DNA of 64,000 nucleotides from Bacteroidota bacterium (GTDB lineage Bacteria > Bacteroidota > Ignavibacteria > UBA10030 > UBA8401). A model generated the notes under the pieces. That model searched no databases and had not been told where the DNA came from. It was given only the letters and a program-made list of their open reading frames with translations. The position numbers and the translations under genes were made by a program. Below, piece after piece: positions 7,946 to 18,426 of this stretch. Every line of letters begins with the position of its first letter. The first letter of the stretch is position 1. The stretch spans positions 1 to 64,000 of the forward strand of contig JAJYOK010000013.1 in assembly GCA_021796215.1 (NCBI GenBank), in the 5' to 3' direction.

Positions 7946-8141
7946 AAGCAGCATTGTAGCCCGGTCACAAAAAACTTTTTTTTCTCTGCCGCATGTTTCA
8001 ATAACCTCAAAAATTTTATTTTCTTTTAACACCCCATCGGGCATTATTGTCCTCATCTGTTCACTGTAGTCCCATCAATTATCTGCTGTAATTTAGGAAT
8101 TACTCTTTTCACCTGATTGTCATTTCCTGCTGATTTTCTTA

Positions 8142-8290: not shown

Positions 8291-10357
8291 ATGAAACGTT
8301 GCAATTTTTTTCCCTTCGTCTTTACCTTGCTAGTGTTCATTCCATTCATTGTCTTTGCCGCTACACCGGACAGCGGAACGCTGATGCCTTCGTCATCGGG
8401 CGGAGCTTCAAGTATATCATGGACTGGCGGCCCTTATACGGCAGTAACTGCCGATCCGTCATTGTGTACATCGCTTTCCTGCGATGAATTCTTGCTCACT
8501 GTGAATATTCCTGTTTCATTTTATACTACCAATCCCGATTTCAGCGTGCGTGTTCATATCGCTTGGGCAGATACGCCGAACGATTTCGATTTGTACGTAT
8601 ATGATGCCAACGGAAATCTTGTCAATTCGTCGGCGCAGGGAAACACAACGTATGAAGACGCAGACCTTGGGCAGTTGACATCCGGAACGTATCGTGTGCA
8701 GGTTGTTGCCTTTTCGACGGTGAATGAATTGTATTCCGGAGTTGCCTCAGTCGGTCCGCCTCCTGTTGATCAGGTGCGTTTGGCAAAATATAAAAGAGGA
8801 AAATTCACATTTACACAACCACAGCAAATGGTTGGTCCTAACGGTGTTGTGTTCGGCGTTCAAGATTTGGAACCCCGTTCGGCGTATGACACATCAGGAA
8901 ATATTTATGTGGCGGCGATTCAAGGCATTCCGGCGGGAACAGATGTGTGGAAGTCGAGTGATGGCGGTACGTCGTTCACTTATCTCGGTCAACCGGATGG
9001 TGCACAAGCCGCTTCAGCAATGGCAGGAAGAACACCGGGCGCCGGAGGCGGTGACGAGGATATTGCCGTAGGGGCAGCAGGAAGAGTGTATGTTACTTCA
9101 CTGTGGCTCGGTTCAGTGACGATGTGCAATTCCTTTGACGGTGGAATGACGTGGGCTGCTAATCCTATTTCCACAACGGTGCCGCTTGATGACCGGCAAT
9201 GGATTGCATCGTACAAGGACAATGAAGTGTACATGACGTTCAAACAACTTGGAGTGTTGCTTGTCGGCACGGAAAGCATCTTTGTGCTGAAATCATTTGA
9301 CGGCGGATTGACATTCCCGCAAGTCACAGAAGCGACAACGCCTGAGCTCGGAGTTCAGCCCGATGATCAGGGAAATATCGCCGTTGATCAGAATAATGGA
9401 AACGTCTATACAGTGTTCATCGGAAATCCGGGCAATTCGGTATACGTTGCGCGCTCTACGGACGGCGGAAAATCCTTTACACTGCTGCTTGTTCATCAAG
9501 GTCCGGTGGGCGATTCATACCAAAATGTTTTTCCAATAGTGGCAGTTGACCGGGGAGGTAATCTGCATGTGGTCTATTCGAACGGCACGAACATCTACCT
9601 GACAAGTTCCTCCGATCAAGGAACAATATGGACGGCGCCCGTGCGAGTCAATAACGGGACGGAAACAAAAACTGCGCTCGCTCCGTGGATTGATGCGGGC
9701 GATGCCGGGAAAGTCGACATCATGTGGTGGGCAACACCGTCGGCAAACAGCCTTGCCGCAGATGCACAGTGGAAAGTGTATTTTGCCCAAACGCAAAACG
9801 CTTTTGCAAAAACCCCGACGATATCAGAAAATGCCGCCACCGGAATTTTTCACACCGGGCCGATTTGTGTGAACGGCACCGGATGCGCTTCGGGCACAAG
9901 AGACCTTGCGGAATACGCCTCGACAACAGTGTATCAGGATGGGAATGCAATGATTGTCTATCCGGACAATCAGCAAACAACCAACCCCCTCACATATTTC
10001 ATAAAACAGACAAGCGGACCGGTTGTTATTTCAATAAGTCATGAAAGCGAAAAGAAGGTTACACAGCAGCTCTCAGTGAAAATTCCGGATCACTTTGCAC
10101 TTGAGCAAAATTACCCGAATCCGTTTAATCCGAGTACAACAATTTCGTATGCGCTTCCGACGAACAGTTTTGTTCAATTGACCGTTTACAATATTTTGGG
10201 GCAGGAAGTTGAGTCTCTCGTCAATGAAGAAAAAGATGCCGGAATGCATTCAGTTCGTTTCGATGCTTCGCAATTGCCAAGCGGCATCTATTTTTACAAG
10301 CTCGCGGCAAACGGGGGGGAATTCGTGAATGTCAAACGTATGGTGATTATGAAATAG
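8291..10357 (+). CDS. Secreted BNR/sialidase-like repeat protein with T9SS sorting domain
   Basis: This encodes 688 residues with AGGAG before the ATG and a signal peptide ending near IVFAATP. Residues about 60-150 resemble a bacterial pre-peptidase C-terminal beta domain (HIAWADTPNDFDLYVYD, SGTYRVQVV). The middle carries repeated SxDGGxxF/W motifs (SSDGGTSFTYLG, SFDGGMTW, SFDGGLTFPQ, STDGGKSFT), the Asp-box signature of BNR/sialidase-like propellers. The last 85 residues are a type A T9SS sorting domain (ALEQNYPNPFNPSTT through GIYFYKL to MVIMK). It should be exported by the type IX system and fixed to the surface or released. No catalytic residues are recognisable. Confidence 0.88.
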   Translation: MKRCNFFPFVFTLLVFIPFIVFAATPDSGTLMPSSSGGASSISWTGGPYTAVTADPSLCTSLSCDEFLLTVNIPVSFYTTNPDFSVRVHIAWADTPNDFDLYVYDANGNLVNSSAQGNTTYEDADLGQLTSGTYRVQVVAFSTVNELYSGVASVGPPPVDQVRLAKYKRGKFTFTQPQQMVGPNGVVFGVQDLEPRSAYDTSGNIYVAAIQGIPAGTDVWKSSDGGTSFTYLGQPDGAQAASAMAGRTPGAGGGDEDIAVGAAGRVYVTSLWLGSVTMCNSFDGGMTWAANPISTTVPLDDRQWIASYKDNEVYMTFKQLGVLLVGTESIFVLKSFDGGLTFPQVTEATTPELGVQPDDQGNIAVDQNNGNVYTVFIGNPGNSVYVARSTDGGKSFTLLLVHQGPVGDSYQNVFPIVAVDRGGNLHVVYSNGTNIYLTSSSDQGTIWTAPVRVNNGTETKTALAPWIDAGDAGKVDIMWWATPSANSLAADAQWKVYFAQTQNAFAKTPTISENAATGIFHTGPICVNGTGCASGTRDLAEYASTTVYQDGNAMIVYPDNQQTTNPLTYFIKQTSGPVVISISHESEKKVTQQLSVKIPDHFALEQNYPNPFNPSTTISYALPTNSFVQLTVYNILGQEVESLVNEEKDAGMHSVRFDASQLPSGIYFYKLAANGGEFVNVKRMVIMK

Positions 10358-10440: not shown

Positions 10441-10630
10441 ATTCCAGTAATACATGCGCTTTTTCCGCTTCGTGCGTAACATCACATGGTGTTCATGCTG
10501 CTTGCTTTTTTCCGGAGAGGGGAATATCTTATTCTTATCCAGAACCGAAAAATACAGCCGTTTTTGCCTCAATAGTTATTACTAGAGTGAGATGGAGGTG
10601 AGCTCAGTACTTTGCTGTAGGAAAAAAATT

Positions 10631-10771
10631 ACTGACATATGCGTATTGTCAGTGAAATGGTTTTTTCTTAATCTCAGCACATACTGTATTTGATGTTTGC
10701 GCCCACGGTGGTTAATATTTCTCATTAGAATCAATGAATCACCGGAAACTGCCATTACATCAGGAATCACC
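10631..10771 (+). promoter_or_regulatory. Inverted and direct repeats upstream of rsbR
   Basis: The 437-base gap 10358-10794 contains the preceding terminator and no convincing gene. ACTGACA (10631-10637) and TGTCAGT (10647-10653) form a perfect inverted repeat with a 9-base centre. Closer to rsbR, GAATCACC occurs twice (10736-10743 and 10764-10771), 28 bases apart. Either could be an operator for the stressosome operon. I could not identify a confident promoter. The rsbR ATG at 10795 has AAGGAG upstream. Confidence 0.3.
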
Positions 10772-10794: not shown

Positions 10795-11712
10795 ATGTCG
10801 AAATCCAACAGCAAAGAGGGAGAAGTGAAAAAAGTTGCCGAGCCGGTACGCGGCGAAACGACAGCTGCGCTATTGCGGGAACTTGTCGCTCACCTTAGAC
10901 AAAACCGAACACAACTCCGCCAGGAGTGGGCGAAACGTATCACGGAAGCAAAATTGCTGACAGCAATGAGTCAGGAAGAAATCTTTGCGGAAGCTACAGC
11001 CGTGTACGACAACTACGTTGAAGCTCTCGAAACGGGAACGTTTGAGGCTTTGCAAGGTTATGCGCGTAATCTGTCCGAACGTATCATTCCGCGAGGCGTT
11101 GAAACACATGAAGTCGTCGGGATCGTGCTGCTGCTGCGTGACGTGCTTGCACGTTCGCTGTTCGCAAAGTACCAGCATGATTTTGCTCTTCTGAACCGCA
11201 TTCTTGATGCGTACGAGCCTGCCGCAAACAGAATTGCAAATACGGTGGCAGTCGGTTTCGTTCAGGAACGTGAACGTACGATTCGCCAGCAACAGGAAGC
11301 TATCCGCGAACTTTCCACTCCAGTTCTTCAGGTTCGTGAACGGTTGCTCATCCTTCCTATTATCGGCGTTATAGATCCACAGCGCTCACGGCAGTTGACC
11401 GAACAATTGCTGCGCGGTATCCGGACAAACCGTGCTAAGGTCGTCGTTATTGATATCACGGGCGTCGCGGCAATGGACTCCAATGTTGCCAACGGCTTGG
11501 TGCAAACGGTTGAAGCATCTCGGTTGTTAGGTGCAACGGTTATCGTTACCGGCTTGTCTCCCGAAATTGCTCAGACACTTGTTACCATCGGTGTTGATCT
11601 GACAAAGATGAACACTGTCGGCGATTTGCAAGGTGGTATTGAAGAAGCAGAGCGGCTTCTCGGTGTCAAAGCTGTGCCTCTTTCTCTTATCGAGCCGCAA
11701 ACAAAATCTTGA
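10795..11712 (+). CDS. rsbR: Stressosome sensor/scaffold RsbR
   Basis: This 305-residue protein has an N-terminal helical RsbRD-like sensor domain (about 20-165) and a C-terminal STAS domain (about 172-295) introduced by RELSTPVLQV, the usual RsbR junction. RsbR co-assembles with RsbS into the cytoplasmic stressosome that holds the kinase RsbT. Aligned from memory with Bacillus RsbRA, the first RsbT target (Thr171) is Pro195 here (GVIDPQRS), while the second (Thr205) is Ser229 (AAMDSNVA). Only the second site could be phosphorylated. The gene is first in a same-strand run with rsbS and rsbT, 12 bases before rsbS. Confidence 0.92.
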   Translation: MSKSNSKEGEVKKVAEPVRGETTAALLRELVAHLRQNRTQLRQEWAKRITEAKLLTAMSQEEIFAEATAVYDNYVEALETGTFEALQGYARNLSERIIPRGVETHEVVGIVLLLRDVLARSLFAKYQHDFALLNRILDAYEPAANRIANTVAVGFVQERERTIRQQQEAIRELSTPVLQVRERLLILPIIGVIDPQRSRQLTEQLLRGIRTNRAKVVVIDITGVAAMDSNVANGLVQTVEASRLLGATVIVTGLSPEIAQTLVTIGVDLTKMNTVGDLQGGIEEAERLLGVKAVPLSLIEPQTKS

Positions 11713-11724
11713 TAAAGGCGAAAC

Positions 11725-12105
11725 ATGGAAGTTCCTATACTTAAGCAAGGCGATTTTCTCATTGCTACTTTTCAAGCAGCTCTTACCGATGAAGATCTCT
11801 TGCAATTGCAGGACGCCTTAGTTGCGCGTGTCGGCAAATTTCGTTCGCACGGTGTTATTGTTGACGTCACTGCGCTCGATGTGATGGATTCGTTTGCGGC
11901 GCGTACGCTCCGCGCATTGGCGCATATGGTACGGCTGCGCGGCGCAGAAACCGTTATCGTCGGCATTCAGCCCGAAGTGGCATTCGCCATGGTGCAGTTA
12001 GGTTTGTCTCTCGAAGGTGTGCCGACAGCACTTGATCTTGAAGAAGGACTTGCACAATTGATGAAAGCCTCTGAACGCAAAGGAGCTACGTTCCGTGGGC
12101 GATGA
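11725..12105 (+). CDS. rsbS: Stressosome scaffold RsbS
   Basis: The product is a 126-residue single STAS domain. The phosphorylatable serine of RsbS is conserved (Ser56 in VMDSFAAR, equal to Bacillus Ser59), as are GIQPEVA and TALDLEEGL near the end. Unphosphorylated RsbS captures RsbT; RsbT phosphorylates this serine under stress and is released. The C-terminus is a little longer than in Bacillus and basic. The stop overlaps the GTG start of rsbT by 11 bases, consistent with coupled synthesis of the pair. Confidence 0.93.
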   Translation: MEVPILKQGDFLIATFQAALTDEDLLQLQDALVARVGKFRSHGVIVDVTALDVMDSFAARTLRALAHMVRLRGAETVIVGIQPEVAFAMVQLGLSLEGVPTALDLEEGLAQLMKASERKGATFRGR

Positions 12106-12496
12106 GATTCGCGTTCCCATAGATTCAGATGCAGATATTGTTATTGCGCGGCAGCAAGGAAGAGCGTTGGCCGAGCGGATCGGGTTTTCTGCCACCGACC
12201 AGACTATTATTGCCACTGCTATTTCCGAAGTTGCGCGTAATATCATCAAGTTTGCAAAGCGCGGCGAAATTATTTTAAGCACAACGATGAAAAACCCGGA
12301 GCGCGGTGTCGTGGTGGTCGCTCGCGACCAGGGTCCAGGAATTGTTGACATACAACTCGCGTTGCAAGACGGGTACAGCACAGGAAACGGATTGGGCATG
12401 GGTCTGCCGGGATGCAAGAGACTGATGGATGAATTGGAAATCAAATCCTCCAAAGGGAAAGGGACAATAGTTACGATGAAAAAGTGGACAACATAG
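12095..12496 (+). CDS. rsbT: Stressosome switch kinase RsbT
   Basis: This is a 133-residue GHKL-type serine/threonine kinase. The N-box (AISEVARNIIKFA), the G1 box (DQGPGI) and the G2 box (GLGMGLPG) are all present, with the length and spacing of RsbT rather than of the anti-sigma factor RsbW. The start is GTG at 12095 with AAAGGAG upstream inside rsbS. In Bacillus, freed RsbT activates RsbU by binding its N-terminal domain. The likely target here is the matching domain on the kinase at 13964-16141. Confidence 0.93.
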   Translation: MGDEIRVPIDSDADIVIARQQGRALAERIGFSATDQTIIATAISEVARNIIKFAKRGEIILSTTMKNPERGVVVVARDQGPGIVDIQLALQDGYSTGNGLGMGLPGCKRLMDELEIKSSKGKGTIVTMKKWTT

Positions 12497-12557
12497 AAAA
12501 GACGCTTATTGTAAGGAAAATTTTTAACCCGTATCTCAAAAAAATATAGGACTTCAT

Positions 12558-13310
12558 ATGAAACGTTTTGTTTTTACCGTTTCAGTCGGTTTTGTTAGCA
12601 TTCTATTGTTATCCGGGAACATGGCAGCCCAACAGAAAAATTCGGGCGAACCTGAATGGTCTGTTAACATGACAGTTATGGAAACATGCAGCTGCCCCGT
12701 TTTTTGTCAATGCTTCTTTACCGGCAAGCCGCCTGCAGAGTGCGGCATGAACATGTCTTCGGCAAAAGGTGAGAGCGATATGGTGTTCTGCCGTTTCAAT
12801 CAGGCGTACAAAGTGAATCACGGTCACTTCGGATCTATGTCGTTGGATGGAGCAATGTTTTGGTTTGCCGGAGATGCCGGAGACGATTTTGCGCATCCAA
12901 AGCTGCCTTGGGTTGTATTAATGTTTGATTCGTCGCTCACAAAAGAGCAACGCGATGCACTGACGATAATTCTTCATCACATCCATTTCTATCGTCCTGA
13001 ACGCTGGAAGTCATATACTGTCGGCAAAAGCGCTTTCATGGATTGGTCATTTACTCCGGACAGCGCGAAGGCTTCACTTGACAAAGGGAAAACGGCAGAA
13101 GTTGTGTTGCGCCGTCTTGATGGTGGAATGAACAACAGCCCTGTTACAATGAACAACATGGATTATTTCGGCTACCCGCGCAACAGCGGTTTCCTTCTCA
13201 TGCCCAACGAGGTTGAAGCATACCGCGTTGGAGAAAAAGCATTCGAGTATCACGGCACGAATGGACTCGTGACAACTGTGGAGATAGCATCAGAAGATCT
13301 CAAGAAATAA
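12558..13310 (+). CDS. Secreted DUF1326-family protein
   Basis: This encodes 250 residues with a signal peptide ending near NMAAQQK. The motif METCSCPVFCQCFF followed by a cysteine in PAECGM is the cysteine cluster of DUF1326 proteins, whose function is unknown; the cysteines could bind metal or be redox-active. No other catalytic motif is evident. It lies between rsbT and the RsbX-like gene, 61 and 27 bases away and on the same strand, so it probably belongs to the stressosome operon. Being exported, it cannot be a cytoplasmic stressosome subunit and could be an output or a sensor accessory. Confidence 0.85.
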   Translation: MKRFVFTVSVGFVSILLLSGNMAAQQKNSGEPEWSVNMTVMETCSCPVFCQCFFTGKPPAECGMNMSSAKGESDMVFCRFNQAYKVNHGHFGSMSLDGAMFWFAGDAGDDFAHPKLPWVVLMFDSSLTKEQRDALTIILHHIHFYRPERWKSYTVGKSAFMDWSFTPDSAKASLDKGKTAEVVLRRLDGGMNNSPVTMNNMDYFGYPRNSGFLLMPNEVEAYRVGEKAFEYHGTNGLVTTVEIASEDLKK

Positions 13311-13337
13311 TTAACGCCGGGAAAACAAATTTTTTAG

Positions 13338-13967
13338 ATGACACCAGAAGATAATAAATCAATGGAGGAAGTTATTGAATTAGGATACGCTTCATTCACG
13401 CTCCCCGGCCAATCAGAGTCGGGCGATACGTACATAGTGAAACACTTTGACAACGGTGTGCTGGTGGGCGTGGTGGACGGGCTTGGCCACGGTAATGAAG
13501 CGGCAATCGCCGCAAAAGCGGCTGTGAAAGTTTTGGAACAATATGCTCATGAGTCGGTGCTTTCTATTATTCGAAGAGCACATGAAGCATTGAGATCAAC
13601 GCGCGGTGTAGTGATGAGTATTGCACGATTCAATGTTACGGAGAATACGATGATGTGGTCGAGCGTAGGAAATGTTGAAGGAGTGTTTTTCCGTGCCGAC
13701 AGGAACACGATTCCGAATCGGGAGATCATTTTACTGCGCGGCGGCGTTGTCGGATACCAACTGCCGCAGTTATATGCTTCTGTTCATCCGGTTTTGCCCG
13801 GCGATACACTCATTTTTGCAACGGATGGAGTACGAAGCGGATTCTATGAAACAATCTCGCTTCACGATACACCTCAGAAACTGGCAGATAAAATTTGTAC
13901 ACAATCAATCAAAAAAAATGACGACGCGTTAGTGTTAGTCGTGCGATATCTGGGACGAAAATTGTGA
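13338..13967 (+). CDS. RsbX-like PP2C/SpoIIE serine phosphatase
   Basis: This 209-residue protein is one SpoIIE-type PP2C domain. Metal-binding motifs are visible: ESGD near residue 27, VDGLGHG near 45, FATDGV near 160 and KNDDALVLVVR at the end. RsbX dephosphorylates RsbR and RsbS and resets the stressosome after stress. The small single-domain form next to rsbRST supports that role over RsbU or RsbP. Its stop overlaps the GTG start of the histidine kinase gene (GTGA), so the two are probably translated together. Confidence 0.88.
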   Translation: MTPEDNKSMEEVIELGYASFTLPGQSESGDTYIVKHFDNGVLVGVVDGLGHGNEAAIAAKAAVKVLEQYAHESVLSIIRRAHEALRSTRGVVMSIARFNVTENTMMWSSVGNVEGVFFRADRNTIPNREIILLRGGVVGYQLPQLYASVHPVLPGDTLIFATDGVRSGFYETISLHDTPQKLADKICTQSIKKNDDALVLVVRYLGRKL

Positions 13968-16141
13968 AATTGACACTGGTAGATATTCAAGAGCAATACG
14001 CTGTCGGATTGAGCGATTACCTTGCGGGCAAAGGAGAAGGAGCGTTACAGCAAGCGTACGAATTGGGGCGAAATGCGATAGTTGAAGGTTATAGTTTTCT
14101 CGATCTGCTCAAAATTCATGAAGAAACAATCGGTGCGTTTCTTGAAGATTCGGGGCAAGCCTCTCAAAGCGTAGAAATGATGACTTCTGCGACGCAATTT
14201 CTTGCCGAGGTTCTCTCTCCATTTGAAATGACTCACCGTGGTTTTCGGGATGCAATTGAAGAGTTGAAGGAGCGTGCAAGCCAACTCACAACAATTAACA
14301 GCAGGTTGGAAGCGGAAATTAGCGATCGCATCGAAGCAGAACGGAGACTGAGTAATTCCGAGAGGATGTACAGATCATTATTTGATACCGCACGCGATTT
14401 TATTTATACACTTTCCGCCGACGGTGTTATTACATCTCTTAATCCGGCAGCCGAGAGTTTGATGGGCTGGGAGCGCTCGGCGTGGATTGGTAAATACTTC
14501 GCTCCTCTTGTCCACCCGGATGACTTGGCATTGGCAGCAGGAGAATTCGGGAAGGTACTTGCCGGCGAAGTGTCGGATGTTTTTGAAGTGCGTGTGAGGA
14601 CAAAAGGAGGCGAATATCTTGTCGTAGAATGTATCACAACGCCGCAACTTCACGAAGGACGAGTTGTTGGAATGCTCGGCATTGCCCGTGATATTACGTC
14701 ACGAAAGAGGGCAGAAGAGCAGCTGCGTCAGAACGAAGAACAATTTCGTCTCATCACCGAAAACATTGCCGATCTTGTCGTAATGCTTGATACGGATGGG
14801 CACGTTATCTACAACAGCCCGTCGTACCGTTCGCTCATCGGCTTTTCCGCGTCAGACCAAAATGCCGATGCTTTTCAAAATATTCACCCGGACGACCGCG
14901 AGCGCGTCAGAAATATTTTCTATGAAATGGTGAAAACTGGCAAGGGGCTGCGCGCAGAGTACCGGTTTATCTCCGGCAACAAAACAATACGCTACATTGA
15001 ATCGGAAGGAAGTGTAATCCGTGACAGTAATGGAAACACAGAAAAAGTTATTGTTGTTTCGCGTGATATCACGGAGCGAAAAGTTGCGCTCGAGAAGCTA
15101 AAAGTACATGAAAAACAACTCGCTGATGCACAGCAAATGGCACACATTGGAAGCTGGGAATGGGACATCGGTGCTAACAAAATTCTTTGGTCGGATGAGT
15201 TGTACCGTATTTATGGCTTTTCACGGGAAGAATTTACAGGGGCATACGAAACGTATATAGAAAAAATTCACCCCGACGACCGGAATTTTGTGCGTAAAAC
15301 AATTGAAGAATCGTTACACGCCCTTCAACCGTTTCGTTTCGAACATCGCATTCTGAGTGCTGGCGGGACTGTCCGCTTTGTTGAAGCACGCGGCGAAGTT
15401 ATTACGGACGATGAAAAAAAACCGGTGAAGCTGATCGGCACAAGTCAGGACATTACAGAAAGGAAAAAAGCCGACGAGGCAGTGCGTGCTCTTGCAAAAC
15501 GAGTAGTTGAGGCGCAGGAAGAAGAACGAAAACGCATCGCTCGCGAACTTCACGACAATATTTGCCAGCGATTAAGTGCGATTAAGCTTCAGATGGGTGT
15601 GTTGGAAGAAGACGTACCGGATAAAAGGACGGGGCTTTTCAAACAGCTCCAAAAAATGAAAAGTCAGGTCGGCGGCACGATTAATGAAGTGCGTGGTATT
15701 TCGGCAAACCTTCGTCCAACAACACTTGATGATCTGGGATTGGTAACAGCGTTGCAGCTTCTCTGCCGAGAGTTTGAAAAGACGCACGGGATAGAAATCT
15801 CTTTCACCGCGCGCGGTGTTGAGAAATCAATGCTAGATATCCATAGAGAAACGGCACTGTACCGGATAGCACAGGAAGCATTGGCAAATGTTGCAAACCA
15901 TGCCGACGCAAAGAAAGCTGCTCTTGATGTGTACGCAGACGATTCAGTTATTGCAATGTCAATTCAAGATAACGGAAAAGGTTTTGATCCGGCAAAACTT
16001 CCGCAGCGGAAGGACCGCTCCGGGTTCGGACTCATGAACATGAAAGAGCGGTCACTGCTTCTCGGTGGAACGTTTCAGATCACTTCGAGCCGGGGCAAAG
16101 GAACAACACTATTTCTAAAAATTCCACTTGCAACGGGGTAA
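13964..16141 (+). CDS. Sensor histidine kinase with RsbU-like N-terminal domain and three PAS domains
   Basis: This encodes 725 residues from a GTG start overlapping the phosphatase stop. Residues about 1-110 (DIQEQYAVGLSDYL through FEMTHRGFRDAIEEL) resemble the helical N-terminal domain of RsbU, which binds RsbT. A short coiled coil leads to three PAS domains (about 130-245, 250-375, 380-505), each ending in a DIT-type PAC motif. A HisKA_3 domain follows with the phospho-His in ARELHDNICQRL (about residue 528), and then a GHKL ATPase (DNGKGFD, GFGLMNMKER). There are no membrane segments, so it is cytoplasmic. It should phosphorylate the NarL-type regulator whose gene starts 3 bases downstream. 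The RsbU similarity is by eye and needs a profile search. Confidence 0.93.
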   Translation: MKLTLVDIQEQYAVGLSDYLAGKGEGALQQAYELGRNAIVEGYSFLDLLKIHEETIGAFLEDSGQASQSVEMMTSATQFLAEVLSPFEMTHRGFRDAIEELKERASQLTTINSRLEAEISDRIEAERRLSNSERMYRSLFDTARDFIYTLSADGVITSLNPAAESLMGWERSAWIGKYFAPLVHPDDLALAAGEFGKVLAGEVSDVFEVRVRTKGGEYLVVECITTPQLHEGRVVGMLGIARDITSRKRAEEQLRQNEEQFRLITENIADLVVMLDTDGHVIYNSPSYRSLIGFSASDQNADAFQNIHPDDRERVRNIFYEMVKTGKGLRAEYRFISGNKTIRYIESEGSVIRDSNGNTEKVIVVSRDITERKVALEKLKVHEKQLADAQQMAHIGSWEWDIGANKILWSDELYRIYGFSREEFTGAYETYIEKIHPDDRNFVRKTIEESLHALQPFRFEHRILSAGGTVRFVEARGEVITDDEKKPVKLIGTSQDITERKKADEAVRALAKRVVEAQEEERKRIARELHDNICQRLSAIKLQMGVLEEDVPDKRTGLFKQLQKMKSQVGGTINEVRGISANLRPTTLDDLGLVTALQLLCREFEKTHGIEISFTARGVEKSMLDIHRETALYRIAQEALANVANHADAKKAALDVYADDSVIAMSIQDNGKGFDPAKLPQRKDRSGFGLMNMKERSLLLGGTFQITSSRGKGTTLFLKIPLATG

Positions 16142-16144
16142 CGT

Positions 16145-16810
16145 ATGAAAAGAATTCGAATTCTTCTTGCTGATGACCACAGCATCGTGCGCAGCGGGCT
16201 TAGGTCTCTTTTTCGGACTACCCGCGGAGAGTTTGTCGTTGTCGGGGAAGCATCGAACGGTGAAGATGCCGTTCGGCTTGCTGCGCGGCTTCATCCCGAT
16301 ATTGCCATTGTGGATATTTCTATGCCGAAAATGAATGGCATCGAAGCGACAAAATTGATTAAGCAGCGGCATCCCGACGTGAAAGTACTCATTCTCACCA
16401 TTCATGAAAATGAAGAATATATTTACGAAATGATCCGTGCCGGAGCAAACGGCTACGTTCTCAAAGATGCGGAAAAGCAGGAGATATTCACTGCTGTTCG
16501 CACGGTGGCATCGTCAGAGCCTTTTTTCAGTCCGTCAGTTTCAAAACTTATTATTCAGAAAATTGCAAAGAAGGGCGACGAACAGCCGCGTGCGGCTAAT
16601 TCAAATCTGCGTTTAACAAAACGCGAGGAAGAGGTGCTTCAACTGGTCGTGCAAGGGTTGACGAGCCGCGAAATTGCGGAGAAGCTGTGCCTGAGCATCA
16701 GCACAATCAATACACACAGAACAAATCTGATGCAGAAACTTGACATTCATGAAACTGCCGGACTCGTGCGGTTCGCAATTCAAGAGGGCTTAACGAAAGC
16801 TGAAGCATAA
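16145..16810 (+). CDS. NarL/LuxR-type response regulator
   Basis: The protein has 221 residues: a receiver (about 1-125, with LLADDHSIVRSGLR, phospho-Asp in IAIVDISMPKMNG, and the KDA lysine) and a LuxR-type helix-turn-helix (about 155-215, with LTKREEEVLQLV and SREIAEKLCLSISTINTHR). It follows the PAS kinase by 3 bases and is its obvious partner, making it the probable transcriptional output of the stressosome. Its targets are unknown; the inverted repeat at 16921-16962 is one candidate. Confidence 0.95.
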   Translation: MKRIRILLADDHSIVRSGLRSLFRTTRGEFVVVGEASNGEDAVRLAARLHPDIAIVDISMPKMNGIEATKLIKQRHPDVKVLILTIHENEEYIYEMIRAGANGYVLKDAEKQEIFTAVRTVASSEPFFSPSVSKLIIQKIAKKGDEQPRAANSNLRLTKREEEVLQLVVQGLTSREIAEKLCLSISTINTHRTNLMQKLDIHETAGLVRFAIQEGLTKAEA

Positions 16811-16920
16811 CACCGGTGTTTGCCAAGATGAAAAGCAGGCGGTGGAATTTTTGTTCCTTCTCGTCATTTCTCACTAAGTATTCATGACGGAGAGCCAACA
16901 TAGTACTGTAGATTGAAAAT

Positions 16921-16962
16921 TACAGAACCTTGCTGATTGATACTTGCGTGGGCGGTTCTGTA
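16921..16962 (+). promoter_or_regulatory. Nine-base perfect inverted repeat between the stressosome regulator and the sigma-54 activator
   Basis: TACAGAACC (16921-16929) and GGTTCTGTA (16954-16962) are perfect reverse complements separated by 24 bases, putting their centres about three helical turns apart. No T-run follows, so a terminator is unlikely. It lies about 100 bases before the sigma-54 activator start in the 248-base gap 16811-17058, and could be a site for a dimeric regulator such as the NarL-type protein encoded just upstream. Confidence 0.35.
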
Positions 16963-17058: not shown

Positions 17059-18426
17059 ATGGAACCTTTCAAAGTATTGTTCTATACGCTCAATGGTTCG
17101 CTAACGCCGAACGTGAAAGATGAATTTGACAAAGCGAAGATGAACGTTCATGAAACGCGTTCAATAACCGACGTTCATAAAGAACTGCAGAAAGAACAAT
17201 ACCACATCGTAATCCAGCGGGCGGACAATGTGCGCGATATTCCCATCAAGCTGCTGCAATTTCTGAAAGTGACTTACCCGGCGCTCCCGACAATTGTGTC
17301 GGTGAAAGAAGGAAAGATTGAGGATGTTGTTCTTCTTGTCAAAGCCGGCGCTGACGATGTTATCATCGCGCCACGATTTGACGCGGAGATGGTCCGGGTC
17401 ATTCAACGCAATGTCTTAAGAGGTGTTCAGGGAAGTGGAGGCGTCGGCAGAAGGAATGCCGTGCAAATAAATTCTTCAGATGTAACACTTATCGGAAAAA
17501 GTCCCGCCATTGAAGATGTGCGGTCGGCAATCGATCTTGTCGCAAATTCTCAAACGGCGGTTCTTATCACCGGCGAAAGCGGAACGGGAAAAGAAGTTGC
17601 AGCACGGCTTATTCATTTGAAAAGCGAGCGGTCGCAGCGCCCTTTCGTTGCCATCAATTGTGCGGCGCTCCCGCGCGATGTGATTGAGAATGAATTGTTC
17701 GGGCATGAGAAAGGGGCGTTCACGGGAGCGGTTGAAAAGAAAAGTGGATGCTTTGAATTGGCAAACACCGGAACATTATTTTTTGACGAGATCGCGGAGA
17801 TGAATCCCGACACACAGGCAAAGCTGCTTCGTGCTATCGAACAAAAAGCCTTTCGCCGGTTGGGCGGAAAGGAAGAAATTAATGTTGATGTCCGGATGGT
17901 CGCGGCAACAAATAAAAATATTGCCGTGGCATTGAGGTCGCGGGAACTGCGCGAGGATTTGTATTATCGCTTCAGCGTGATAGAAATTTACATGCCTCCT
18001 CTACGTGAACGAAGAGAAGATATTCCTTTGTTGGTAGATCACTTTTTTTCGTTATTCAAAGAAAAATATGGAAGAACGAAGCAGTCCCTGAGCCATGATG
18101 CCATGAAATTTCTCGTTGAGTACAATTGGCCCGGCAATGTGCGGGAGCTTCGTAATGTTCTTGAGCGCGTCGTTGTTACAGGACCGAACGGCAGCATTCG
18201 CGGGGTGCATCTTTCTCAGCGTATTTTAAAAAATGAATCAGAGAATGGCTATATGATCAATATTCCTATCGGCACATCGGCAGAGGAGGCAGAGCGGCAG
18301 TTAATTCTTCAAACACTCACGTATATGAAGAATAACAAGTCGAAAGCCGCATTGATGCTTGGGGTAAGCAGAAAGACACTCCATAACAAGTTGAACCAAA
18401 TGGCGGAAAAAAATAAGGCGCGGTGA
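17059..18426 (+). CDS. Sigma-54 activator with a degenerate receiver domain
   Basis: The chosen start gives 455 residues. The N-terminal 120 residues have the size and hydrophobic pattern of a receiver but lack the acidic pair (VLFYTLNG), carry Arg54 in place of the phospho-Asp (IVIQRAD) and have no conserved lysine (DDVIIAPRF). The AAA+ domain is intact: GESGTGKE Walker A, GAFTGA sigma-54 loop, and GTLFFDEIAE Walker B. A Fis-like helix-turn-helix (KSKAALMLGVSRKTLHNKL) ends the protein. It should activate RpoN promoters under a control other than Asp phosphorylation. The frame is open to 16930, but the extra part overlaps the inverted repeat and looks non-coding. Confidence 0.92.
   Translation: MEPFKVLFYTLNGSLTPNVKDEFDKAKMNVHETRSITDVHKELQKEQYHIVIQRADNVRDIPIKLLQFLKVTYPALPTIVSVKEGKIEDVVLLVKAGADDVIIAPRFDAEMVRVIQRNVLRGVQGSGGVGRRNAVQINSSDVTLIGKSPAIEDVRSAIDLVANSQTAVLITGESGTGKEVAARLIHLKSERSQRPFVAINCAALPRDVIENELFGHEKGAFTGAVEKKSGCFELANTGTLFFDEIAEMNPDTQAKLLRAIEQKAFRRLGGKEEINVDVRMVAATNKNIAVALRSRELREDLYYRFSVIEIYMPPLRERREDIPLLVDHFFSLFKEKYGRTKQSLSHDAMKFLVEYNWPGNVRELRNVLERVVVTGPNGSIRGVHLSQRILKNESENGYMINIPIGTSAEEAERQLILQTLTYMKNNKSKAALMLGVSRKTLHNKLNQMAEKNKAR

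Follow-up and report, generated by a model that had tools for sequence, protein, structure and literature searches.

In the seven-gene cluster at 10795–16810 of the window (i.e., the whole 64,000-nt stretch of DNA analyzed here, part of a 3.37-Mb genome), a minimal stressosome probably has a histidine kinase as the target of RsbT, with a NarL-type response regulator carrying the output to promoters that share a DNA motif, including the promoter of the cluster itself. The genes, their domains, their conserved order, and the motif with its pattern of co-occurrence are read directly from the DNA. In the route that we propose, stress would cause RsbT to phosphorylate RsbS and RsbR and to leave the complex. 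Freed RsbT would then bind the RsbU_N four-helix domain and the coiled-coil linker of the kinase, and docking would alter the geometry of the linker and thereby how the HisKA_3 core balances kinase against phosphatase activity, with the variable PAS domains providing a second input. The kinase would phosphorylate the NarL regulator, which would bind a GTA-N10-TAC site that is followed, after 12 bp, by an ATTG-N20-TAnnnT promoter. Predicted targets are the rsbR operon itself, generating positive feedback that would be checked by RsbX, as well as genes for a secreted protein, for a nucleotidyltransferase and its thioredoxin neighbor, and for a sigma-54 activator whose level would determine its activity. 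The position of the site is most naturally read as activating. If this route is correct, classical two-component transcription is here under the control of a complex that is known for its release of a sigma factor. Stressosome targets outside the Firmicutes are largely unknown, and the motif points to concrete candidate genes and promoters amenable to direct testing.

All seven ORFs are on the + strand, in the order rsbR, rsbS, rsbT, a DUF1326 gene, rsbX, a PAS histidine kinase gene, and a NarL regulator gene, with overlaps between rsbS and rsbT (12095–12105) and between rsbX and the kinase gene (13964–13967); this is the arrangement given in the original prediction. The first gene, rsbR (10795–11712), encodes the stressosome co-antagonist/sensor and is the only rsbR in the genome. 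Its product has a STAS domain (Pfam, 1e-14), matches a solved chain of the Listeria stressosome RsbR at 3e-32, and, by alignment to the Listeria protein, retains phospho-site equivalents at S229 (Listeria T175, a Thr-to-Ser change) and T261 (Listeria T209). The scaffold antagonist gene, rsbS (11725–12105), encodes a STAS-domain protein that matches the solved Listeria RsbS chain at 4e-25 and keeps S56. The switch kinase gene, rsbT (12095–12496; HATPase_c_2, 5e-14), retains the codons for N49, D78, R19, and R23; the N-box Asn (N49) and the G1 Asp (D78) are invariant in an 81-row alignment. The rsbX product (13338–13967; SpoIIE, 2e-12) is a single-domain PP2C feedback phosphatase. Judged by the phospho-acceptors, the kinase residues of RsbT, and the single-domain RsbX, the RsbR-RsbS-RsbT-RsbX set has the sequence features of a stressosome module. 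The two genes that follow have all the hallmarks of a NarL-type two-component system: the histidine kinase (13964–16141) comprises RsbU_N (residues 10–89), a coiled-coil linker, three PAS domains, HisKA_3 with the phospho-acceptor H530, and HATPase_c, and the NarL/FixJ-type response regulator (16145–16810; Response_reg, 4e-30; GerE, 3e-18) has a receiver Asp at D57 and a GerE helix-turn-helix. The hallmarks of a SigB-type general stress operon, i.e., genes for an RsbU phosphatase, RsbV, RsbW, and sigma-B, are absent from the cluster, as had been predicted.

The likely output of the system can be traced through a DNA motif, which was derived by aligning the regions upstream of rsbR and of the sigma-54 activator gene from three congeners, followed by a genome-wide pattern search. 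The promoters of both genes share the core GTAG-N5-AAATTAC-N12-ATTG, which is perfect in all six instances from the three congeners; the extended form is GTAG-N5-AAATTAC-N12-ATTG-N20-TAnnnT. In the window, five sites with ≤2 mismatches were found, against 0.14 expected. A perfect core on the + strand at 10617–10648, upstream of rsbR, is a putative autoregulatory NarL site; it is conserved in G001 and G002, with variants in G005 and G056. A second perfect core (16908–16939, + strand) precedes the sigma-54 activator gene and is also perfect in G001, G002, and G047. A third putative NarL site and promoter (8088–8119, + strand; GTAATTTAGGAATTAC dyad, N12, ATTG) has two core mismatches and has orthologous sites in G002 (L019 13634) and G001 (C319:10827), such that the motif precedes this gene in three congeners. 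The gene in question (8291–10357, + strand) encodes a BNR-repeat-like secreted protein sorted by the T9SS (Por_Secre_tail, 2e-16; BNR_2, weak), and is a candidate regulon member outside the signaling cluster. In five cluster-bearing genomes the motif precedes a gene for a mannose-1-phosphate guanylyltransferase-like nucleotidyltransferase, which in the congeners has a thioredoxin gene as its neighbor; the motif is absent upstream of 21 nucleotidyltransferase homologs in cluster-free relatives. Other new sites precede receiver-only genes in G047 and a TonB receptor gene in G005.

Perfect core sites are concentrated in genomes that have the cluster, with nine in the seven cluster-bearing genomes versus one in 53 cluster-free relatives. 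Among 22 aligned sites, which are partly orthologous and hence not fully independent, several columns that were not used in the search are conserved: C at −12 (20/22), G before ATTG (19/22), and, 20 bases past ATTG, the T (19/22) and A (20/22) of TAnnnT together with its final T (21/22). We read these unselected columns as an ATTG-N20-TAnnnT promoter. With ≤1 mismatch, the extended pattern occurs at 15 sites in cluster-bearing genomes and at one elsewhere, although many of these sites had also served to train the pattern.

Co-occurrence suggests a candidate for the protein that recognizes the motif. G043 is the sole cluster-free genome with a perfect site, and on the same 10-kb contig it encodes a NarL regulator 59% identical to that of the window, together with a HisKA_3 kinase that lacks RsbU_N; one motif site lies upstream of the operon and one after it. 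Since G043 has the regulator and the motif without a stressosome, the motif follows the NarL regulator, which in this genome seems to be plugged into a different front end. The contig (C229, 2162–9589) has genes for an HTH-receiver protein, an ECF-type sigma factor, and a 1,433-aa hybrid HisKA_3 kinase. A different regulator, e.g., the sigma-54 activator, might instead bind the motif, leaving NarL to control something else. The activator is indeed co-conserved, but we consider this alternative unlikely: the sites lie at a fixed distance before ATTG-N20-TAnnnT and not before a −24/−12 promoter, no sigma-54 activator was seen on the G043 contig, where the motif sits beside the NarL regulator, and the GTA-N10-TAC spacing resembles that of sites for GacA/UvrY-type regulators. 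We therefore assign the motif to the NarL regulator, as an inference from co-occurrence.

The sigma-54-type activator gene (17059–18426, + strand; Sigma54_activat, 1e-66; start codon chosen from homologs) lies beyond the 16810 limit of the original prediction; it follows the NarL gene in most relatives, and is the last member of the cluster. Its receiver domain is degenerate. The match to Response_reg (19.7 bits) is below the cutoff, the domain aligns poorly with that of NarL, the acidic pocket is missing, and the acceptor Asp is replaced. Homologs at three loci (L025, L045, and L046) are too short to have a receiver domain. Because the receiver is seemingly unphosphorylatable, the activity of the activator may depend on its amount, as set by NarL through the putative site at 16908. 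We lean slightly toward a three-tier cascade, in which the stressosome would govern a NarL regulon with a dedicated promoter and positive feedback, and this regulon would in turn include the amount-controlled sigma-54 activator. A search of the window for the sigma-54 promoter pattern gave no signal (four matches versus 6.3 expected). At both L045 and L046, the receiver-less homolog of the activator comes after a stand-alone receiver gene. In G056, the homolog (L022 11503–12138) lacks the AAA+ core and retains only receiver-like and HTH ends.

The input to the kinase is suggested by its N-terminus. The original prediction held that only the kinase has an RsbU-like N-terminus and called for a profile search; the region matches Pfam RsbU_N at E = 2.6e-11 (44.0 bits; curated cutoff, 25.5), and the 13964–16141 kinase is the sole carrier of this domain in the genome. 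A family profile of 13 members also finds Bacillus subtilis RsbU in the PDB (2j70/1w53) at 1e-4. The family profile was needed, as a single-sequence phmmer search of the N-terminus against the PDB gave no match. RsbU has a four-helix domain followed by a helical linker (PMC12143880). The AlphaFold2 model of kinase residues 1–139 (pLDDT 82) is in line with this architecture, with predicted helices at 5–20, 25–40, and 45–63, and a continuous helix at 67–138 that runs into the linker. A Foldseek search of the PDB with this model, which is dominated by the long helix, gave no significant match.

Residues implicated in RsbT binding are conserved in part. E24 of RsbU has been implicated in RsbT binding (PMC12143880), and its equivalent is Glu in 72 of 73 sequences; on the RsbT side, R19 is kept in 80 of 81 sequences and R23 in 66 of 81. 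B. subtilis RsbU needs Y28 to bind RsbT; this position is not conserved, being Gln in this kinase and variable elsewhere. RsbT D92, which is contacted by RsbU R91, is conserved in 68 of 81 sequences. In the ungapped register, R91 aligns with I98 of the kinase, and the conserved kinase R92 (68/73) is six residues away; hence, we do not transfer the R91-D92 contact to the kinase. We do not claim R92 as the equivalent of R91, which would need a six-residue shift within a continuous helix.

The association of RsbU_N with the stressosome genes is conserved. RsbU_N occurs in seven of 60 genomes of the neighborhood, and the order R-S-T-X-kinase-NarL is present in all seven, in answer to the survey of related genomes that had been suggested. 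Across six aligned kinases, RsbU_N, the linker, and the kinase core are conserved, with the number of PAS domains going from three to one to none; the PAS-less kinase is found in one relative (L025). Since the gene order is kept in 7/7 genomes while the number of PAS domains runs from three to zero, RsbU_N and the linker are the constant input. Six further above-cutoff RsbU_N proteins were found in the phylum, all adjoining rsbT and a NarL-family gene; at two of these loci, R, S, and X were not recognized by BLAST within the fetched stretch. Another match from the phylum scan, in G067, was rejected, being below the cutoff and having no cluster. Together, the RsbU_N match and the gene order kept in relatives support the predicted route, in which RsbT would switch the kinase and NarL would carry the output.

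Two other accounts of the kinase have to be weighed. The stressosome and the kinase could be mere neighbors, with the PAS domains as the real input and RsbU_N serving only to dimerize the kinase. RsbU_N is a dimerization domain in RsbU, the kinase has three PAS domains, and the Y28 equivalent is not conserved, all of which fit this account. We nevertheless regard it as quite unlikely, given the kinase without PAS domains, the presence of rsbT beside every above-cutoff RsbU_N kinase examined in the phylum, the overlapping genes, and the conserved equivalents of E24 and R19. Alternatively, RsbT could act on the kinase by phosphorylating it and not by docking on RsbU_N, as suggested for the downstream kinase of Vibrio vulnificus. 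RsbT is a Ser/Thr kinase, and phosphorylation has been proposed for downstream kinases without RsbU_N (PMC9237108). The kinase here has RsbU_N and keeps it when PAS domains are lost, and phosphorylation alone would not require the domain; this account is correspondingly improbable.

Docking of RsbT on the kinase is also preferred over a route through partner-switching genes elsewhere in the genome. RsbV/RsbW/PP2C-like proteins are encoded on contig C34, but it is highly improbable that RsbT drives them as well as, or instead of, the kinase, given that none has RsbU_N and that the genome has no sigma-B-type sigma factor, the only protein with sigma-70 region 3 being a 285-aa housekeeping-type sigma factor. 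Genome-wide, no RsbU_N phosphatase was found. The PP2C-STAS-HATPase cluster on this contig (C34:107602–110979) is a separate partner-switching cluster, and lies ~8 kb from the nucleotidyltransferase gene with a perfect motif, for which the predicted site is at C34:118342.

The DUF1326 gene (12558–13310, + strand; Pfam, 3e-11), which encodes a Cys-rich motif and an apparent signal peptide, had been predicted to be part of the layout. This part of the prediction did not hold. No DUF1326 gene lies between rsbT and rsbX in any other cluster examined, whether in relatives, in the phylum, or at the named-genome loci, and the family occurs in only one other genome of 60; we therefore reject it as a functional part of the module. 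In congener G002, rsbT and rsbX nearly abut, and in G001 there is only a short gap. The gene is best read as a recent, species-specific insertion, i.e., a probable passenger. No mention of DUF1326 was found in the literature searched.

Without DUF1326, the layout is not new; the original prediction had suggested that the exact layout, with DUF1326, may be. RsbU_N kinases in rsbRSTX operons have been reported for Proteobacteria by Heinz et al. in 2022 (PMC9237108) and in eLife in 2025 (PMC12143880), such that the principle of RsbT acting on an RsbU_N histidine kinase is already published. Like the cluster described here, the Proteobacterial modules (PMC9237108; gammaproteobacterial RsbU_N histidine kinase model, PMC12143880) have R-S-T-X followed by an RsbU_N kinase and a receiver-domain partner, with no RsbV, RsbW, or SigB in the operon; here, by contrast, the phylum is different, a sigma-54 activator is added, and a regulon is predicted. 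The RsbR proteins in the survey of PMC9237108 had globin-coupled sensors, whereas RsbR here matches RsbRD_N weakly (0.00025, just under the cutoff) and matches no globin-sensor family in Pfam. The rsbRSTUVW-sigB-rsbX operon of B. subtilis shares the RsbR/S/T/X core and an RsbT target with RsbU_N and a coiled-coil linker, but the effector here is a HisKA_3 kinase with a NarL output and no sigma-B. In the stressosome-diguanylate cyclase system of Moorella thermoacetica (cited in PMC12143880 and PMC4976288), RsbU_N similarly puts a non-phosphatase output under RsbT, with c-di-GMP as the output there and a two-component output here. V. vulnificus and Vibrio brasiliensis likewise have RSTX with downstream two-component genes, but their RsbR is a haem globin, and the downstream proteins of V. 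vulnificus lack RsbU_N (PMC9237108).

The arrangement extends to many phyla. Named genomes were searched using the RsbT alignment; of the 80 best loci by similarity, a biased sample, 72 contain an RsbU_N-like ORF in the vicinity of rsbT, nearly always immediately 3′ of rsbX. The outputs of these 72 ORFs, with classes spot-checked using Pfam, are histidine kinase (43), PP2C (15, mostly Mycobacterium), HD (three), GGDEF (three), and sigma-54 AAA+ (one), with seven unassigned or truncated. A NarL-like regulator directly follows the RsbU_N kinase in 29 of the 43 cases among these best 80 loci. These counts suggest that, outside the Bacillales, RsbT often targets a histidine kinase, and stressosomes may thus commonly serve as the input stage of two-component systems. 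The sigma-54 case, from an Acidobacteria locus (L080 4932–6935), combines RsbU_N and the AAA+ domain in one protein, a further type of RsbT output. Lastly, three Nocardioidaceae loci (L062 9704–10051, L067 9674–10000, and L096 2725–3006) have short, RsbU_N-only ORFs of 93–115 aa in a different gene order.
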